Below, in pieces: positions 11,431 to 21,716 of a stretch of DNA of 64,000 nt (its first letter is position 1; every line of letters begins with the position of its first letter). Under the pieces are notes generated by a model, which ran no database searches, was not told the DNA's origin, and was given only the letters and a program-made list of their open reading frames with translations. The DNA is from Kiritimatiellia bacterium. GTDB taxonomy: Bacteria > Verrucomicrobiota > Kiritimatiellia > CAIVKH01. Position numbers and translations under genes: made by a program. The DNA is taken from positions 929,651 to 993,650 of the forward strand of contig JAOSKE010000001.1 in NCBI GenBank assembly GCA_027493775.1. Direction: 5' to 3'.

Positions 11431-12318
11431 ATGCAGGTTCTGCTCGACCAGTTTTTGGATTACATCACTCTCGAAAAAGGGCTTAGTCCGAACACCCGCT
11501 CGGCCTACGCCTCCGACCTCGCGCATTTCATCCCGTTCATCCAGCGCGCCGGAGTCTCCACACTGAACAAACTGACCCGCCGCCAGTTGCTCGATTACCT
11601 AATGTGGGAAAAAGAGCGCGGCCTGAACGCCTCATCCCTCTCGCGCCGGCTGGTCGCAATTCGCGTATTTCTGCGTTACCTCCAGCAAGAGGGCCTTCTC
11701 GCGGGCAATGTAACGGAAACAATGGATTCGCCGAAAATCTGGAAACTGCTGCCCTCAACACTTACACCGGCAGAAGTGGAGCGGCTGCTCGAAGCGCCAA
11801 AAATTGACAAGCCCATCGGACTGCGAAACCGCGCCCTGCTCGAAACACTCTACGGCGCCGGACTTCGCGTGTCCGAGCTCGCGTCGCTGAAGATCGAAGA
11901 TATTCAATTCGACGCCGGATACCTTCGCTGCTTCGGCAAGGGCAGCAAGGAACGGGTCGTGCCCCTCGGCGGCGCGGCAGCCGCCTATCTGAAGAAATAT
12001 ATCGAAGAAGCGCGACCGCAATTTGATCGCGCCACACAAAGTCCCTATGTCTTTCTTTCCAATCGCGCCCGGCCGCTAAGCCGAAAAACAATCTGGCAGC
12101 TCATTCGCCGCTGCGCGCACGACGCGGGTATCACAAAAACCGTGTCGCCGCACACCCTCCGACATTCCTTCGCGAGTCATCTCCTTGCCAACCAAGCGCC
12201 GCTGCGCGTCATCCAAGAAATGCTCGGCCATGCCGACATCGCCACAACACAAATCTATACCCATATAGATGCCCCACGCCTGCAACAAGTTCACCGCCAA
12301 TTTCACCCCCGCGCATGA
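11431..12318 (+). CDS. Tyrosine recombinase XerC/XerD
   Basis: SPHTLRHSFASHLL...LGHADIATTQIYTH catalytic motif. Confidence 0.92.
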   Translation: MQVLLDQFLDYITLEKGLSPNTRSAYASDLAHFIPFIQRAGVSTLNKLTRRQLLDYLMWEKERGLNASSLSRRLVAIRVFLRYLQQEGLLAGNVTETMDSPKIWKLLPSTLTPAEVERLLEAPKIDKPIGLRNRALLETLYGAGLRVSELASLKIEDIQFDAGYLRCFGKGSKERVVPLGGAAAAYLKKYIEEARPQFDRATQSPYVFLSNRARPLSRKTIWQLIRRCAHDAGITKTVSPHTLRHSFASHLLANQAPLRVIQEMLGHADIATTQIYTHIDAPRLQQVHRQFHPRA

Positions 12319-13015
12319 TTGGTCGAAAAAATCCATACCGTGATTTGGAAAAGGCGCTCGGCTACCGCTTCCGTCAACGCCGTTGGCTCGAACAAGCGCT
12401 GACCCACCCCTCCTTCGCCCACGAACAAACACCAGAGCTTCCGGACAACCAACGAATCGAATTTCTTGGAGACGCCGCCCTCGGACTCGTCGCCGCCGCT
12501 TTCTTACACAACACCCACCCGAACGCGGATGAAGGGAAGCTCACTAAAATGCGCAGCTTGCTGAGCAACACCAAGGCGCTTGCTCATCTCGCCACCCGGA
12601 TTAATCTTGGAAGTTTCCTTCAACTCGGCAACGGCGAAGAGCACGACGGCGGACGCGCACGCCCCACGATTCTTGCCGACGCCCTGGAGGCGGTCATTGG
12701 CGCGGCCTATCTCGACGGGGGCAAAAAGCGGTGGAAAAAATTTTCCACTGCGTCTTCAAACCCCACAGCGGCGCACTGATCGAAATCCCGCAGGATGGAA
12801 ATCCAAAAGGTGAACTGCAAGAGCGCGTGCAAAGCGCCGGAAAAGGTATTCCTCAATATCGAATCGTCAAAGAAGAAGGCCCGCCGCATCAAAAAACCTT
12901 TACCGTTGACGTGTTGATTGGCAACGAGCGTCATGGAACGGGCGAAGGTCGCACCAAACGCGAGGCGGAAACCAACGCCGCTCTCGTTGCTCTGCGAGAA
13001 TTCAATCCCAAGTAA
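12315..13015 (+). pseudogene. rnc: Ribonuclease III, frameshifted near A5 at 12723-12727
   Basis: RIEFLGDAALGLV and ALEAVIGAAYLDGG in ORF 12315-12779; dsRBD PKGELQERVQ...GRTKREAETNAALVAL in ORF 12731-13015 in another frame. Confidence 0.85.
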
Positions 13016-13090: not shown

Positions 13091-13546
13091 ATGGCAAAAT
13101 CAGTTAGTTCACTCAGCACGCTGGAATTAATAGCAGAAATCAATCGCCGCCGGCAGCAACAGCTTCCTCGTTTGAAGGAACAGGCCGCAAAAATCGAAAA
13201 ACAATTGTCAGCCATTAACGCCCAAATCGCAGAGTTGAGCGGAATCGCTCCCGCTGCGCCTCAAACGCGCGGCAAGGCGAAGAAAAAAGCCGCTGCAAAA
13301 TCGAAGGCAGCTCCGGCGAAGGGTGGCGACAAGCGTCCCCACAACAAGATCAGTCTTGCGGATGCAATTCTCGCCGTCCTCACCAAGGACAATCCGATGA
13401 ACGCTAGGCAGATCATCGCGGCGGTAAAGAAAAACGGCTACAAGACCAAGTCCGACAACTTCGAGACCATTGTCTATCAGACGCTCGCGCGCGAAAAGAA
13501 GCGCATCGCCAAAGCCTCGCGCGGGCACTACGTCCTTAAAGGTTAA
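13091..13546 (+). CDS. Coiled-coil / Lys-Ala-rich linker / HARE-HTH-like winged-helix protein (H1-like)
   Basis: GKAKKKAAAKSKAAPAKGGDKRP linker followed by SLADAILAVLTKDNPMNARQIIAAVKKNGYKTKSDNFETIVYQTLAREKKRIAKASRGHYVL. Confidence 0.6.
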   Translation: MAKSVSSLSTLELIAEINRRRQQQLPRLKEQAAKIEKQLSAINAQIAELSGIAPAAPQTRGKAKKKAAAKSKAAPAKGGDKRPHNKISLADAILAVLTKDNPMNARQIIAAVKKNGYKTKSDNFETIVYQTLAREKKRIAKASRGHYVLKG

Positions 13547-13556
13547 TCTCCTTTAC

Positions 13557-13725
13557 TTGACATCCGGCAGGGCTTCTATACTGTCGCCCTGCCTTTCAGG
13601 TTCCGGCGTAGCTCAATGGTAGAGCAGGGCGCTGTTAACGCCAAGGTTGTAGGTTCGAGCCCTACCGCCGGAGCCACTATCCCTCCCCCCGACCCGGCCG
13701 AGTTGCCTCTTCGGCAGATCAACAG
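13557..13725 (+). repeat. Left copy of imperfect direct repeat (promoter + tRNA-Asn + 3' flank)
   Basis: TTGACA...CTTCT...CCCTGCCTTTCAGGTTCCGGCGTAGCTC...CTCTTCGGCAGATCAACAG matches 21734-21901. Confidence 0.75.
13602..13676 (+). tRNA. tRNA-Asn (GTT)
   Basis: Cloverleaf TCCGGCG...CGCCGGAGCCA, anticodon loop CTGTTAA, TTCGAGC T-loop, encoded CCA. Confidence 0.94.
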
Positions 13726-13941
13726 TCACCGCGCCCCTACCCTTATTCGCTCGCGCACTCCTTGCCGATGCGCCGCACCGTGTGACACGGCAAAAACGTT
13801 CAGACGGTGTGCCCATTATGGAAGGCGTAAGCAATCTGCGGGGATGATTCCGTCTATTTTCCGGTCAACAACAAACCGAAGGGCTACGATGGTTTGTCAC
13901 TCCCCTCTCCTCCTGAGACGCAAATTAGACTCTTTTTTTTC

Positions 13942-13996
13942 TTGCATGGCCGACCCGATATGCTACTATGCGCCACGTAGTACATGACACATAGTA
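13942..13996 (+). promoter_or_regulatory. Putative padR promoter with overlapping TACTATG-N19-CATAGTA dyad
   Basis: TTGCAT (13942-13947), 16 bp, TACTAT (13964-13969); inverted arms 13964-13970 and 13990-13996 just before ATG 13999. Confidence 0.5.
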
Positions 13997-13998
13997 CC

Positions 13999-14343
13999 AT
14001 GGGAACGGAAACATCCATTAGTCAGTGGCGGCGAGGCGTAATCGAATACTGCCTCCTGATTTTCCTGAGTCGGGGGGAGAATTACGGGTATGAAATCGTG
14101 CAGGCGCTGCGCTCCATCGAGGCGCTGGCGGTTTCGGAAAGCACGGTATATCCGATTCTCTCCCGCTTGCGGGCGGACCGCATGTTGAAGGTGCGGGATG
14201 TCCCCTCCGATTCCGGCCCGCCGCGTCGTTACTTTTCACTCACCCCTGCCGGGCGGGAGCGCCTCGCAGAAATGGAAGCGTACTGGATCACACTCTCTGA
14301 TGCCGTCAACCAATTGAAAAAAAGCAAGGGGGCTTTAAAATGA
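13999..14343 (+). CDS. PadR family transcriptional regulator
   Basis: SRGENYGYEIVQALRSI...SESTVYPILSRLRADRMLKVRDVPSDSGPPRRYFSLTPAGRERL is the PadR winged helix. Confidence 0.9.
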   Translation: MGTETSISQWRRGVIEYCLLIFLSRGENYGYEIVQALRSIEALAVSESTVYPILSRLRADRMLKVRDVPSDSGPPRRYFSLTPAGRERLAEMEAYWITLSDAVNQLKKSKGALK

Positions 14344-17300
14344 ACGCTGCACTGCAACGCTATTTGGAAGAAGTGGAACGACGCCTGACTGAAAGGCCGC
14401 CGGAGGAACGAGCGAGCATTCTCACGGGCCTGCGGGAGCATATCCGCGAGCTGCTGGTCGTACACAATGGAAACGTGGATGCGGTGCTCGCCGCGCTGGA
14501 TGACCCGTCGGCCTATGGCACATTGCCCGCAGACGCTCCACCCATTCGCCACGCGCGGCCGTGGATGCTGATTGCGCTGCTTTCCCTGGCGCTCAATGTC
14601 GTGGGCGCGTGGTTTCTGCTTGGGCAGGATCGGGCAACGGACACGAACTCCTTCGGAAATATTCAGCAACCGGCCACAGAGCTTATTCTACAGAAGATCG
14701 AACAACTCGATTTCGCCCCCAATCGCGCAGCGTTGATTGCCTTGGAGTTCTCCGAAAAACCCGACGCACGCGTGCTTGAAAATTATCTCGAACTGACGGA
14801 TGGGGACGGTCAGTTGGACTATTCCGTCGTCTCTTCCACCGACTCGAATCGTGTCGTGATCCGAACCAGAGAAATCGCCGGTAACGGGGTGTCCATTCTC
14901 CTCGCCAAGGGATTTCCGGCGTTGAATTCGGAATGTTGTTCTGGAAAACCCGGTCACGAAAAAGCTCTCGGTCACGAGCAATCTGCAGATTGCCGAGATA
15001 TCCGTAAAGGCGCCAGCCTTTGAAGAAACATCCATTGTCGTCAGCAGCACGTTGGAAGTGGATGCGAGCACGGCGAATAAGTTTATTTCGGTGGATCCTG
15101 CCGTCCGTTTCACCATTCAGCCGCGCGAATCCTGGTATGATAACAAAATCCTGCTCAACGGGGACTTCACGCCGGAGACGCTGTACACGCTCCGCTTTAA
15201 AAAGGGATTGCGCGCAAAATCCGGAGCTGCTCTGACCCAGGATGTGGTGCGCCGGATACAGATACCTATGCGCTCGCCCGCGCTTGCGTTCCCGACGTCC
15301 GGCCAATATCTCTCTCCGCAGGGCAATCTTCATATCCCGCTGTCGGCGATGAATCTCAGCGAGGTGGAGCTTTCGGCGGCCCGCGTGCTTCCGCAAAACC
15401 TGGTTCAGTTTATCGGACGTGAAACGGACCTGCTGCCGGACTACTACGGCGATCCGGAGGAGCTGTTGACGCAAAGAGGGCCGACGCGAACAAATCTGCT
15501 GGTCGGCGCGGCCAATCACGAAATAAAGACGCGCGTAAGCCTGCGCGATCTCGTTGAAGGGGAACCGATTGGAGCCTTCTTTGTCACAGCAAAATCTAAA
15601 AAGATCACGGCCAAACAACTGGTGGTCGCAACGGACATCGGACTCAGTGCGCGGCTCAGCCAGGGCACCCTCTTCGTCTGGGTCAACTCGCTTGCGACAG
15701 CCCGACCGCTCCAAGGGGTCGAGGTTGTCGCTTATGGAGCAAATAACGCCGAGCTGGTGCGCGGCAAAACTTCTGACGATGGAACACTGTCGTTGCCGAT
15801 GGGTTCTGGAGGAACGAAGCCTGCGGTCTTGATTGCTTCCACAGGAAACGACCTTTCCTACCTTGATCTTGTCTCGACTGAAGTGACGCCAGCGGACACG
15901 CAACGCAGTGCCGCCTATCTGGCGGATGGGTATGAAGCCTTTGTTTTCACCGATCGTGGCGTCTATCGCCCGAATGAGACGGTTCACGTCAAAGCGATTC
16001 TGCGCGATAAAGAACTAAATCCGCCAAAATCGTTTCCCATCCGCTTTCGCGCGATCCGACCGGATGGCCAGCTCTTTCGCGAGTGGCCGTTGCTCTTGGA
16101 TGAATGGGGCGCGGCAGAAACGAACTTTGTCGCAAAGGATTTTCTGCCGACCGGTCTCTATCGCCTGCAAGTCCTGTTGCCCACCGATGGCGAACCGCTC
16201 GGATCAACGACAGTTGCCGTGGAGGAGTTTGTGCCGCCACAGATTCGCGTCTCTCTCGATTCTCCGACCGCGCCGCTGCCCGCGTCTGCTCCGTTCACAT
16301 TCGCGGTGAAGAGTCAGCATTTGTTCGGGCGGCCTGCAGCAGGTCTCGCCGTAAGTGGCCGGGCGCAATTTGAGGCAGTCGCATTCACTCCAGACGGTTG
16401 GGCCGGTTTTGTGTTCGGCGACAGAGAAAAGAAGTTCGACCCGATTTTTTCCGAGTTGGGCTCCGGCCATTTGGATGAAAACGGCGTCGGGCAATTCAGC
16501 GTGTCGCCCTCTTCCGCGTGGAGCCCGCCGGCCCGCGTGAAAGCCACTCTTGGCGCGACCGTGCGCGAGGCCGGAGGACGCACGGTTTCGGCCTATGGAT
16601 CTGCGTTGGTGGACGTCTATCCCTTCTACATCGGACTTCGCTTCGAAACGGATGGAGCGGTGAACCCGAGCAAGGAACAGCGCGCGCGTGTCGCGGCGGT
16701 ATTGCCGGACGGCGCGCCGGCCTTCACGAACGGCGCATTGAAATGGACGATTTCCACGATCTCCGGCGCGTATGTGATGAAGCGCGATTCAAACAAGCGA
16801 TTCTCCTTCCTCTATCAGGAAACGGTCACACCTGTTCACGAAGGAGTTCTGGTTGTCGGCGCGACGGCGGCTGACCTCGTCTTTCCCGCAGAGTCATCCG
16901 GTGAATATCTCCTTGTTGTCTCCGATCCGGCGAGCGGCGTATCGGCAAGCAAGCGGTTCACGGTCATCTCGCCTAACGATCCGTGGCAACGCGTAGGACG
17001 CGAGCGACCGGACACCATCGAACTTAAATGCGAACGCGAACGCTACGCCCCCGGCGACACAGCGAAAGTACTGGTGAAGCCGCCATTCGCTGGCCCTGCT
17101 CTGCTTACGATCGAAACGGATCATATCCTAGAGCATCGCCTTGTCGAATTGGACGGCAATGCGACGGAACTCGCAATTCCCGTCAAAGCCGACTACGCGC
17201 CGAACGTGTACGTCACGCTGACCGTGCTCCGCCCCGCCGTGGCGGAACGAACATGGAGTGCGCATCGCGCGGTGGGCGCAATTGCGTTGCGCGTGCAGCC

Positions 17301-19608
17301 GACACAACGGAGGCTCAACATCGCGCTGGATGCGCCGGGTACCAACCGCCCACAGGCCCAGCTCAACGCCCGCATACGGGTCACGGATGAATCGGGCAAC
17401 CCGGTCCGCGCATCGGTGAATGTCATGGCGGTGGACGAAGGAATCTGTGCGTTGACGGGATTCAATACACCCGACCCGCTTTCATTCTTCCTCGCGCAAC
17501 GCGCCCTCGGTGTGTCATGGTTCGATCTGTATAGTTTGTTGATGCCGGTGATGGAGGATGAGATCAACCGGACCACGTCTCACATGCCGGGGGGCGCTGC
17601 GGCTTCGCTGCTGCGACGCCTGAACCCGATTCGGACCCAGCGTTTCAAGCCCGTTGCGCTGTGGAGCGCTCCGCTGCTCACGGATGAAAACGGCGAAGCC
17701 ACGGCGACGTTCAATGTGCCGGAGTTCACCGGTGAATTGCGCATCATGGCGGTGGCGAATGATCGCCAGCGCCTTGGCTCCGCCGAGCGCGCGGTGAAAA
17801 TTAAACGCCCGCTGGTGGTCGAAACCACGCTCCCCCGCTTCCTCGCGCCGGGCGACACATCGAGCATCACCATTCAGATTTTCAACGAAACGGGCGCGGA
17901 TCAGTCCGTGCAACTCCGCGTCACAAGTGGCGGACCGTTGTCCATTGACGCTCCGGACAAAACATTCCAACTTGCGGCAAATAAGACACGCACGGAAACG
18001 ATCACGCTGCGCGCGGACGACGCGCCGGGCCGCGGCCTCTGCACGGTTGACGTGACGGCCGGTTCGGAACGCTATTCGGAAACAGTCGAGCTGGCCGTTC
18101 GCCCGGCATGGCCGGAACAGAGTATGTCCGAAGTAGGTTCCTTGTCAGCGGGCAAATCCCATTCATTTGGCGGAAATGCAAACCTGTTGCCCGGAACGGA
18201 AGAAAATGTGATCTGGAGCGGCGGCGCGCCTTCCATCCAACTCGGTCAGGCGGTCAATCAACTCGTGGGCTATCCCTACGGCTGCCTGGAGCAAACGGTC
18301 TCACGCGCCATTCCGATGTTGTATCTGCCGGAGCTGGCGAATCGCCTTCTGCCGAAATCCATGAATCCTGAGGAAGTCGCCTCGTTCATTGACAGCGCCG
18401 TACTGCGCGTGCTTTCGATGCAGCAACCGCAGGGCGGCTTCGGAATGTGGCCTCGTGTCAGCTCAACGTGGACGTGGGGAAGCGTGTACACCGCCCACTT
18501 CCTCGTCGAAGCGCGACGCGCGGGCCACGAGGTGCCATCGTCATCGCTTGATGCTGCGCTTCAATATCTGCGCACGCAGCTTGATCGCCCGCTGAATAAT
18601 ACGGTGGATGAGGCATGGCGAACCGACATGGAAGAGCGCGCCTATGCGGCTCGTGTTCTCGCATTGGCCGGCCAGCCCGTACCCGGTTGGAATGCACGGC
18701 TCGCGGAACTCTATCCCGCTCTCACGCCCGCCGCGCGCATTCATACAGCCGTTGCGCTTTCACTCAGCGGCGATCCACGGCAGGGGAATGAACGCCTGAA
18801 GCAAGTGACGAACGATGGCGTGGAGGGTGTCGAAGACCTCTCATGGCTTCTGCTTGCGTCGCTCGATCTCGATCCCAAGGCCGATGTCGTAGCCGATCTC
18901 GCCCGCCGGATTGAGGCCGCGCGGACAAACGGCGATTGGGGCGCCACCACGCCCAACGCACTCGCTCTTCTTGCGCTGGGCCGCTATGCGACACTGGTTC
19001 CCGCGGAGCAGAAGCCGTTCGTGGCGCGTATGGAGGAACGCGGGGTATCCACGGCCATCGAACCGCACGGAAGCACATGGACCAATACCGGTCCCTTCAC
19101 ACTCGTCAATGAAGGCCCGGGTGCGCTCTACTATTCGCTCCGCCAACGGGGTGTGCCAAAGCGGCAGAAACTCGTCCTGCGCGATAATGGAATCGTGGTG
19201 CGTCGTCAGTGGCTGGATCTCAAGGGAAATGCCGTTGCACAGGGTGTCGCCAAACAAGGCGAACTCGTCATCGTGAAAATCACGGTTTCGGTTGATGCCA
19301 AGCGCGCCGACAACCTGATCATTGAAGACCTCCTGCCTGCCGGCTTTGAAATTGAGAATCCGGCGCTCGCCACCGCCGAACGCTTCGCATGGATGAAGGG
19401 CGACGAGAAGTGGATTCTGCACCGCGAAGTTCGCGATGATCGCCTCCTCCTCTTCAGCGGGGCGTTCAGCGACGAACAGACTTTCTTCTACACCATGCGC
19501 GCGGTCACGCCCGGTCGCTTCGCTCAACCTCCAATCACGGCCAGCGCCATGTACGCGCCGGATTTGCGCAGCGTGGCTGGCGCCGGAGAGGTGACGGTTA
19601 TCCCATGA
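14340..19608 (+). pseudogene. HAAS-like domain + TM + bacterial alpha-2-macroglobulin (thioester CLEQ), frameshifted near 14935-14945
   Basis: ORF 14340-15023 (HAAS-like N-terminus, TM, MG-like start) is continued in another frame by VLENPVTKKLSVTSNLQIAEISVKAPAFEETS into ORF 15052-19608; thioester motif YPYGCLEQTVSRAIPML with CLEQ at 18283-18294. Confidence 0.8.
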
Positions 19609-21716
19609 AATGGGTTTTACGCTTTCTCGTTCTGCTCGTGGCGCTCTGTGCGCTCGCGTGGTTCGCCATCCCCTTTCCCACCGATGCGCTTGATCGCTTT
19701 CCCGGCGGTACGGTGCTGACTGATCGCGCCGGGCAGGTTCTGCGCGTGACCCTCGGCCCCGGCGATCTGGACTGTCGCCCGGTATATGAACCGGATCCCA
19801 CGGATTGGATCGTGAAGGCCGTTGTTGCTGCGGAAGACAAGCGCTTTTGGAAACACCCCGGCGTGGATCCGCTGGCCCTCTTTCGCGCTGTCTTCCAGAA
19901 CATCAGCGCCGGACGGCGCATCTCCGGCGCATCCACCCTCTCCACGCAAGTCATCCGCCTGATGCATCCGCGCAAACGAACCCTGCCGACGAAGTTCATC
20001 GAGGCCTTTCGCGCACTGCAACTGGAACGAAAGCTCAGCAAAACAGAAGTCCTGCGCCAATATCTGAACCGAGCGCCGTTCGGCGGAAATATCTATGGCA
20101 TTGAAGCCGCCGCCCAACGCTATTACGGGAAAAGCGCTCACGACCTGAGCCTCGCCGAAGCCGCACTCCTCGCAGGTCTTCCCCAGTCGCCCACCCGATT
20201 CCGACCCGACCGCCACTTGGAAAAGGCGCAACATCGCCAAGTCGCCGTATTAAAACAAATGGTCGCGGCTGGCTTCATTACCGACGAGGAACACCGCAAC
20301 GCAAGCGCACAAAACGTCGCCTGCCGCGCCACCACCTATCCGTTCAAGGCCCCGCACTTCGCAGACTACGTCGCCTCACAACGCACGGAGCAGAGCGGCG
20401 TCGTCCGCAGCACACTCGACAGCGATCTGCAGGCCATCGCCGAAACCGCGCTGGCACAGGACAGCGAAGCCCGACGTCGCGCCGGAATCCGCGGCGGCGC
20501 AGTGGTTGTGCTCGAAGTAAAGACGGGCGCGATTCGCGCACTCGTCGGCTCGCCTGATTATTTCGACGCGACCGCTCACGGCCAGGTCAATGCCGCGCTG
20601 GCCTCTCGTTCCGCCGGGTCCACCCTCAAGCCCTTTGCATTTGCACAAGGATTCGATCGCGGGCTCATCACGCCCCGCTCGATGCTGGCGGATGCGCCAC
20701 TGAACTTCGCCGACTTCACGCCCTCCAATTTTGACGGCGATTTTCACGAAAGTGTTTCCGCTCGGGACGCCCTGATCCTCTCTCTCAATCTTCCCTCCAT
20801 TGATTTGGAACGCAGAATCGGCCAACCCAACTTTCATCAGTTGCTGCTCGATGTGGGACTTCGCACGCTGAACCGCCCTTCCGCGCAATACGGCCTGGGC
20901 TTGGCGCTCGGCAACGGTGAAGTGCGCACACTGGACCTCGCCAACGCATACGCCGCCCTTGCCCGCGGCGGCGAATGGAAACCGCTCCGCTGGCGCGAAG
21001 ACGCGCCCGCTGCCAAGGGGCGGCACGTGATATCGCCGGAAGCGGCTTGGCTGGTATCCGAAATCCTAAGCGGCCCCGAACGCGCACTCGATGCCACCGG
21101 CCATGCCGCCGATGTCCGAATGCCCCGCATCGCGTGGAAGACGGGCACCTCTTCCGGTTTTCGCGACGCATGGACGGTTGCATGGAACCCGCGCTACGTC
21201 GTCGCGGTCTGGATCGGAAATCCCGACGGCGCGGCATCGCCTCAGCTTGTCGGCAAACGCGTCGCCACGCCGATCGCGTGGAACGTGTTTCGCCAGTTGC
21301 TCCCCGCGAACGAAGCGCCGTGGTACCCGCAGCCCGAAGGACTCGCCACACGCGACATCTGCATGGAGAGCGGGGACGTCGCCGCCCCCGCTTGCGAACG
21401 CGTCGGATCGGATTACTACCTCTCCGGTGTGACCCCCTACGTCACCTGCGCACAAAAGCACACGCATGCTATGGTGGAACCGCCCAATCCGAAAATCAGC
21501 TCCCCCGCCAACGCATCCGTCTTTCGCATCGCTGGCGCGAATGAAACCCGGCAGCAACTCGTTCTCACCGCCAATGCCGACAACCATTGGTTTGTTGATC
21601 AAGCCTACGCGGGGAAAGGAAAGACCATCCCGTGGCGTTTCACACGCGGCCGACACGAAATTGTCCTGAGCGACAACCGAGGTCGCAGCGACCGAGTATC
21701 CGTGACCATTGAATGA
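19605..21716 (+). CDS. pbpC: Penicillin-binding protein 1C
   Basis: AAEDKRFWKHPGVDP and GASTLSTQVIRLMHPR transglycosylase motifs; SAGSTLKPFAF transpeptidase SxxK; WKTGTSSGFRDAW KTG motif; C-terminal PBP1C-type domain. Confidence 0.92.
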   Translation: MKWVLRFLVLLVALCALAWFAIPFPTDALDRFPGGTVLTDRAGQVLRVTLGPGDLDCRPVYEPDPTDWIVKAVVAAEDKRFWKHPGVDPLALFRAVFQNISAGRRISGASTLSTQVIRLMHPRKRTLPTKFIEAFRALQLERKLSKTEVLRQYLNRAPFGGNIYGIEAAAQRYYGKSAHDLSLAEAALLAGLPQSPTRFRPDRHLEKAQHRQVAVLKQMVAAGFITDEEHRNASAQNVACRATTYPFKAPHFADYVASQRTEQSGVVRSTLDSDLQAIAETALAQDSEARRRAGIRGGAVVVLEVKTGAIRALVGSPDYFDATAHGQVNAALASRSAGSTLKPFAFAQGFDRGLITPRSMLADAPLNFADFTPSNFDGDFHESVSARDALILSLNLPSIDLERRIGQPNFHQLLLDVGLRTLNRPSAQYGLGLALGNGEVRTLDLANAYAALARGGEWKPLRWREDAPAAKGRHVISPEAAWLVSEILSGPERALDATGHAADVRMPRIAWKTGTSSGFRDAWTVAWNPRYVVAVWIGNPDGAASPQLVGKRVATPIAWNVFRQLLPANEAPWYPQPEGLATRDICMESGDVAAPACERVGSDYYLSGVTPYVTCAQKHTHAMVEPPNPKISSPANASVFRIAGANETRQQLVLTANADNHWFVDQAYAGKGKTIPWRFTRGRHEIVLSDNRGRSDRVSVTIE

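Follow-up and report, generated by a model that had tools for sequence, protein, structure and literature searches.

A Kiritimatiellia bacterium carries, directly downstream of padR, a gene that fuses a HAAS domain and a single transmembrane (TM) helix to an alpha-2-macroglobulin (A2M), followed by pbpC. Because this protease trap has a HAAS tail, with padR just upstream and a conserved operator-like site in front, it probably signals the state that it is in to the repressor of its operon. We lean toward a single operon of padR, haas-A2M, and pbpC that represses itself, with the state of the A2M passed to PadR via the TM helix and HAAS. The architecture and the operator-like element rest on sequence, from which we infer PadR binding, the signal, and its sign. 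The window analyzed here is a stretch of 64,000 nt (GCA_027493775.1, contig JAOSKE010000001.1, positions 929,651–993,650, forward strand).

The locus runs tRNA-Asn, padR, HAAS-TM-A2M, and pbpC, with the latter three genes all on the + strand (Table 1). As originally predicted, the stop codon of padR overlaps the start of the next gene (ATGA, 14340–14343), and the pbpC start overlaps the A2M stop in another ATGA. The padR product contains a PadR winged-helix domain and matches solved PadR chains by sequence (E down to 4.8e-22). In a search of the whole genome (assembly ~93% complete), it was the one PadR match, and the one HAAS match likewise fell at this locus. The padR start given by the ORF caller (13984) was rejected in favor of the conserved ATG at 13999. 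An ORF listed at 13616–13987 overlaps the operator-like element as well as the tRNA-Asn gene and is probably no gene; farther upstream, the product of 13091–13543 is rich in Lys and Ala, matches winged-helix families weakly (below cut-off), and may be a nucleoid protein.

Table 1. Features of the padR–A2M–pbpC locus, in window coordinates.
Feature	Position	Strand	Basis or remark
tRNA-Asn gene	13602–13676		upstream of padR
Sigma-70-like padR promoter (TTGCAT, 16 nt, TACTAT)	13942–13969	+	read from sequence
36-bp operator-like element, overlapping −10 box	13962–13997	+	PWM over 29 loci
padR, PadR-family repressor	13999–14343	+	PF03551, E 1.3e-19
HAAS, TM helix, and start of macroglobulin domain	14340–14927	+	one frame
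HAAS domain, residues 8–59	14361–14516	+	PF22564, E 2.7e-9
Single TM helix	14559–14624	+	alignment and AlphaFold model
First part of N-terminal macroglobulin domain	14676–14927	+	beta strands in model
Frame break in first macroglobulin domain	14922–14937	+	tblastn of intact relatives
Remaining A2M protein, to bMG10	14938–19608	+	Pfam, alignment, thioester list
A2M bait region	about 17020–17454	+	
A2M thioester CLEQ	18283–18294	+	
pbpC, penicillin-binding protein 1C	19605–21716	+	Pfam Transgly, Transpeptidase, BiPBP_C

The N-terminus of the fusion scored 37.7 bits against the HAAS profile PF22564 (cut-off 27), and the HAAS domains of intact relatives also lay above the cut-off (E 1.4e-7 and 1.3e-7). 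AlphaFold predicted three HAAS-type helices (residues 3–18, 21–41, 46–52 and 56–59; pLDDT mostly ~89–95), the third of them kinked with a break at DDP; in seven aligned HAAS+ sequences, the Pro of this GxP kink motif is invariant and the Gly is replaced, mostly by Asp, so that the subfamily reads DxP, which departs from the HAAS motif. A linker leads from HAAS to the TM segment PWMLIALLSLALNVVGAWFLLG, modeled as one helix (residues 72–99) whose Asn N86 is invariant across the seven aligned sequences, and a beta domain follows. Mean pLDDT for this N-terminal part was 81.9; because pTM was only 0.40, the packing of domains in the model is not meaningful. Sequence and fold searches of the PDB returned no useful solved-structure match for the HAAS part; for the N-terminal macroglobulin part, 5a42 and 4zjg (both E. 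coli A2M) matched weakly by fold. The profile score and the predicted helices agree with the original prediction of a HAAS-like N-terminus followed by one TM helix, and argue against an N-terminus lacking the HAAS fold.

Within the first macroglobulin domain the fusion gene changes frame. In tblastn, residues 1–213 of a same-genus relative (G002) matched frame +3 up to 14921 and those from residue 219 matched frame +1 from 14938, which places the break within ~16 nt. Complete HAAS-TM-A2M proteins were found in a single ORF (1795–2084 aa, stop to stop) at 22 fetched relative loci; other fetched loci were truncated at contig ends or broken within the gene itself (G002 after 1025 aa, G051 at one stop). 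Pfam likewise placed HAAS and A2M domains on one reading frame in relatives. The earlier claim that HAAS-TM runs into a thioester A2M is thus confirmed by Pfam and by the single ORFs of relatives, and the alternative that 14340–15023 encodes a separate protein does not apply, since the relatives have one continuous ORF. A true mutation in this organism, by which HAAS-TM would be reduced to a stub and A2M be made separately or lost, would match the break present in the assembly, but we consider it unlikely given that the relatives are intact, that A2M and pbpC stay open for ~4.5 kb and ~2.1 kb beyond the break, and that the neighboring RNase III gene is also frame-split. In that gene (12315–13015, ~2 kb upstream), the nuclease and dsRNA-binding domains lie in different frames near an A6 run, which points to assembly indels in the contig; from the sequence, such an indel appears the likeliest cause of the A2M frame break. 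At the G002 locus (L012), the HAAS-A2M junction is intact, but beyond it A2M and pbpC are scattered over many frames, which suggests poor assembly or decay. TTG at 15052 was rejected as the A2M start, which would remove the first macroglobulin domain.

The A2M frame contains the Pfam domains bMG3, MG2, bMG5, bMG6, bait region, A2M, TED, and bMG10, with the thioester motif PYGCLEQ. Every intact HAAS+ protein that we checked retains a CxEQ thioester, so the body of the sensor probably works as a trap too.

The padR promoter was absent from the list of a generic promoter scan, and most relatives have a TTGAC box at the same place. The upstream regions of padR have in common a 36-bp block, GgTAtTATGTATTaCGTAnTACgTaATGCGGAGTAG (37 bits in all), composed of three GTAnTAC-like palindromic units with centers 14 bp apart, symmetric about the middle unit; a dyad noted in the original prediction (13964–13996) is real and falls within it. 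In leave-one-out PWM scoring, the window copy reached 33.0 vs. a maximum of 7.2 in 200 shuffles, and the six copies tested in this way scored 10.5–36.7, with shuffle maxima of ≤7.2. All 31 HAAS+ loci scanned scored 20–55 and 27 of the 28 HAAS− loci scored ≤7.5; the remaining HAAS− locus, L071, scored 21.1, which we attribute to repetitive, low-complexity sequence ahead of the gene. The conservation of the third unit has two possible causes, since its GGAG may double as a ribosome-binding site. The core pattern (≤1 mismatch) matched the genome at this locus only, so that the regulon search found no second site with a pattern that misses some diverged true sites; further copies of PadR, HAAS, or the element are possible because the assembly is ~93% complete. 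From the conservation of the element we infer that PadR binds it, and by analogy autorepression would be the expected use of such an element.

A class-wide profile search covered 347 genomes, and the fetched loci were scored with local HMMs. The original prediction suggested looking for HAAS-TM-A2M fusions beside padR in other genomes, and these were found: padR immediately preceded the A2M gene at all 27 HAAS+ loci of the class whose upstream sequence was usable, and at none of its 14 HAAS− A2M loci with ~1 kb or more of sequence before the gene (Fisher 3e-11, ignoring relatedness of loci); most of the 14 keep pbpC. No pbpC was seen in the fetched stretch of three HAAS+ loci (L064, L065, and L067). 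A quick A2M tree, with SH-aLRT support only, requires four HAAS changes, readable as one gain and three losses; PadR changes along with HAAS in all four independent pairs, a number with which significance is out of reach (p 0.125). Because the TM helix (about WFxLAxAFLxVNxxGxW) forms the very N-terminus of proteins that lost HAAS, and the HAAS− outgroups in the class begin with it too, HAAS looks to have been grafted onto a pre-existing membrane-anchored A2M. HAAS-like domains also occur in proteins of ~200–585 aa in family f32 of this class (G116, G120, G121, G122, G130, and others).

Named genomes were scanned by the A2M body, the N-terminal alignment being too divergent for this use. In a set of 80 named A2M loci spanning many phyla, HAAS and PadR occurred together at L089, L091, L092, L094, and L100, which are labeled Kiritimatiellae, Lentisphaerae, or Verrucomicrobia; L090, labeled Spartobacteria, was cut at a contig end. 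Outside the class and within the phylum, three genomes of one family (L178–L180) carry the fusion with padR, the operator-like element, and pbpC. In Planctomycetota, the phylum of a Phycisphaeraceae MAG, one of 249 sampled genomes encodes a diverged PadR, HAAS-A2M, and pbpC; its HAAS copy reads GPP at the kink motif, and the 36-bp element was not matched at this locus. This operon (L177, G824), which lies outside the phylum and has the same gene order, is perhaps an independent fusion. No HAAS-A2M fusion was found in 247 genomes of Acidobacteriota, the phylum of a Thermoanaerobaculia MAG, where HAAS-like matches sit in shorter proteins.

In the circuit that we propose, PadR would bind the three units of the element, which overlies the padR promoter, and keep the operon repressed. 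The A2M protein is predicted to cross the inner membrane by its one TM helix, placing HAAS on the cytoplasmic side and the bait/thioester trap on the periplasmic side. A protease cutting the bait or the N-terminal macroglobulin domains would trigger a conformational collapse that reaches HAAS via the TM helix, and the altered HAAS would take PadR off the operator, so that the trap is refilled and the cell-wall synthase PBP1C induced; HAAS may either sequester PadR or act as its co-repressor. In this way the trap itself would do the sensing, replacing a two-component system. E. coli A2M undergoes a global conformational change on bait cleavage, and MG1-3 and MG7 are missing from its elastase-cleaved form (PMC4498604); by analogy, such changes could offer a physical signal at the N-terminal macroglobulin domains beside the TM helix. 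PMC11237479 proposes that HAAS passes membrane or intracellular state to PadR, and that HAAS-PadR is an alternative to two-component systems. Co-inheritance, the conserved element, and, by analogy, the known HAAS-PadR pairs are all consistent with a relay of protease attack to PadR. That firing of the trap acts through one TM helix to make HAAS release PadR, giving a one-operon protease-damage response in several PVC-group phyla, we judge to be evenly poised.

Alternatively, the operon may be a homeostat in which HAAS reports the amount of A2M in the membrane, or general membrane stress, instead of protease cleavage, and PadR tunes operon output. The HAAS partners known so far probably sense membrane-linked states (PMC11237479), and with a single PadR and a single element match found in the genome the circuit is closed on one operon, both of which accord with such a role. 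We nevertheless hold it to be somewhat doubtful, given that it leaves unexplained a full-trap sensor body with a CxEQ thioester retained throughout the intact HAAS+ proteins checked. Many PadR proteins bind ligands, and this PadR could respond to a small cytoplasmic ligand of its own, with HAAS as a passive anchor or a co-repressor without signal; this we find quite improbable, as PadR is there when HAAS is and missing when HAAS is missing, even though a TM anchor alone suffices after HAAS loss.

A trap that reports its own state to PadR would bear on two little-known matters, how bacteria detect proteases that attack their envelope and how they regulate A2M and PBP1C. With the trap covalently joined to its repressor's partner and a defined operator-like element, both questions become testable, in little-studied hosts (Kiritimatiellia and relatives), and HAAS-PadR signaling gains a possible mechanical sensor type. 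A full-text search combining HAAS, PadR, and macroglobulin did not return PMC11237479, and no report of PadR or HAAS combined with A2M was found in the literature searched (most subscription journals excluded). Separately, both the HAAS-PadR pair and the A2M-PBP1C operon were already known.

The E. coli A2M, YfhM/ECAM, is anchored as a lipoprotein. It resembles the A2M described here in domain order, CxEQ thioester, RDDR motif, and pbpC neighbor, but has neither HAAS nor PadR (PMC4498604). The Listeria lltR operon (LltR, lmo0600 with DUF1700, and lmo0601) is, as the present one would be, an autoregulated padR-HAAS operon, in which mutation of LltR raises lltR ~150-fold and the adjacent DUF1700 (HAAS) gene ~118-fold, whereas its HAAS protein is multi-spanning and lacks an A2M (PMC6624303). 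As in the HAAS-PadR dyad described in PMC11237479, a predicted cytoplasmic N-terminal HAAS is carried on a membrane protein with a standalone padR adjoining. The HAAS fusions given there include PspC, LiaI-LiaF-TM, Toastrack, FtsX-like, FtsW/RodA-like, VanZ, and pentapeptide-repeat proteins, whereas here HAAS is joined through one TM helix to a predicted periplasmic A2M.
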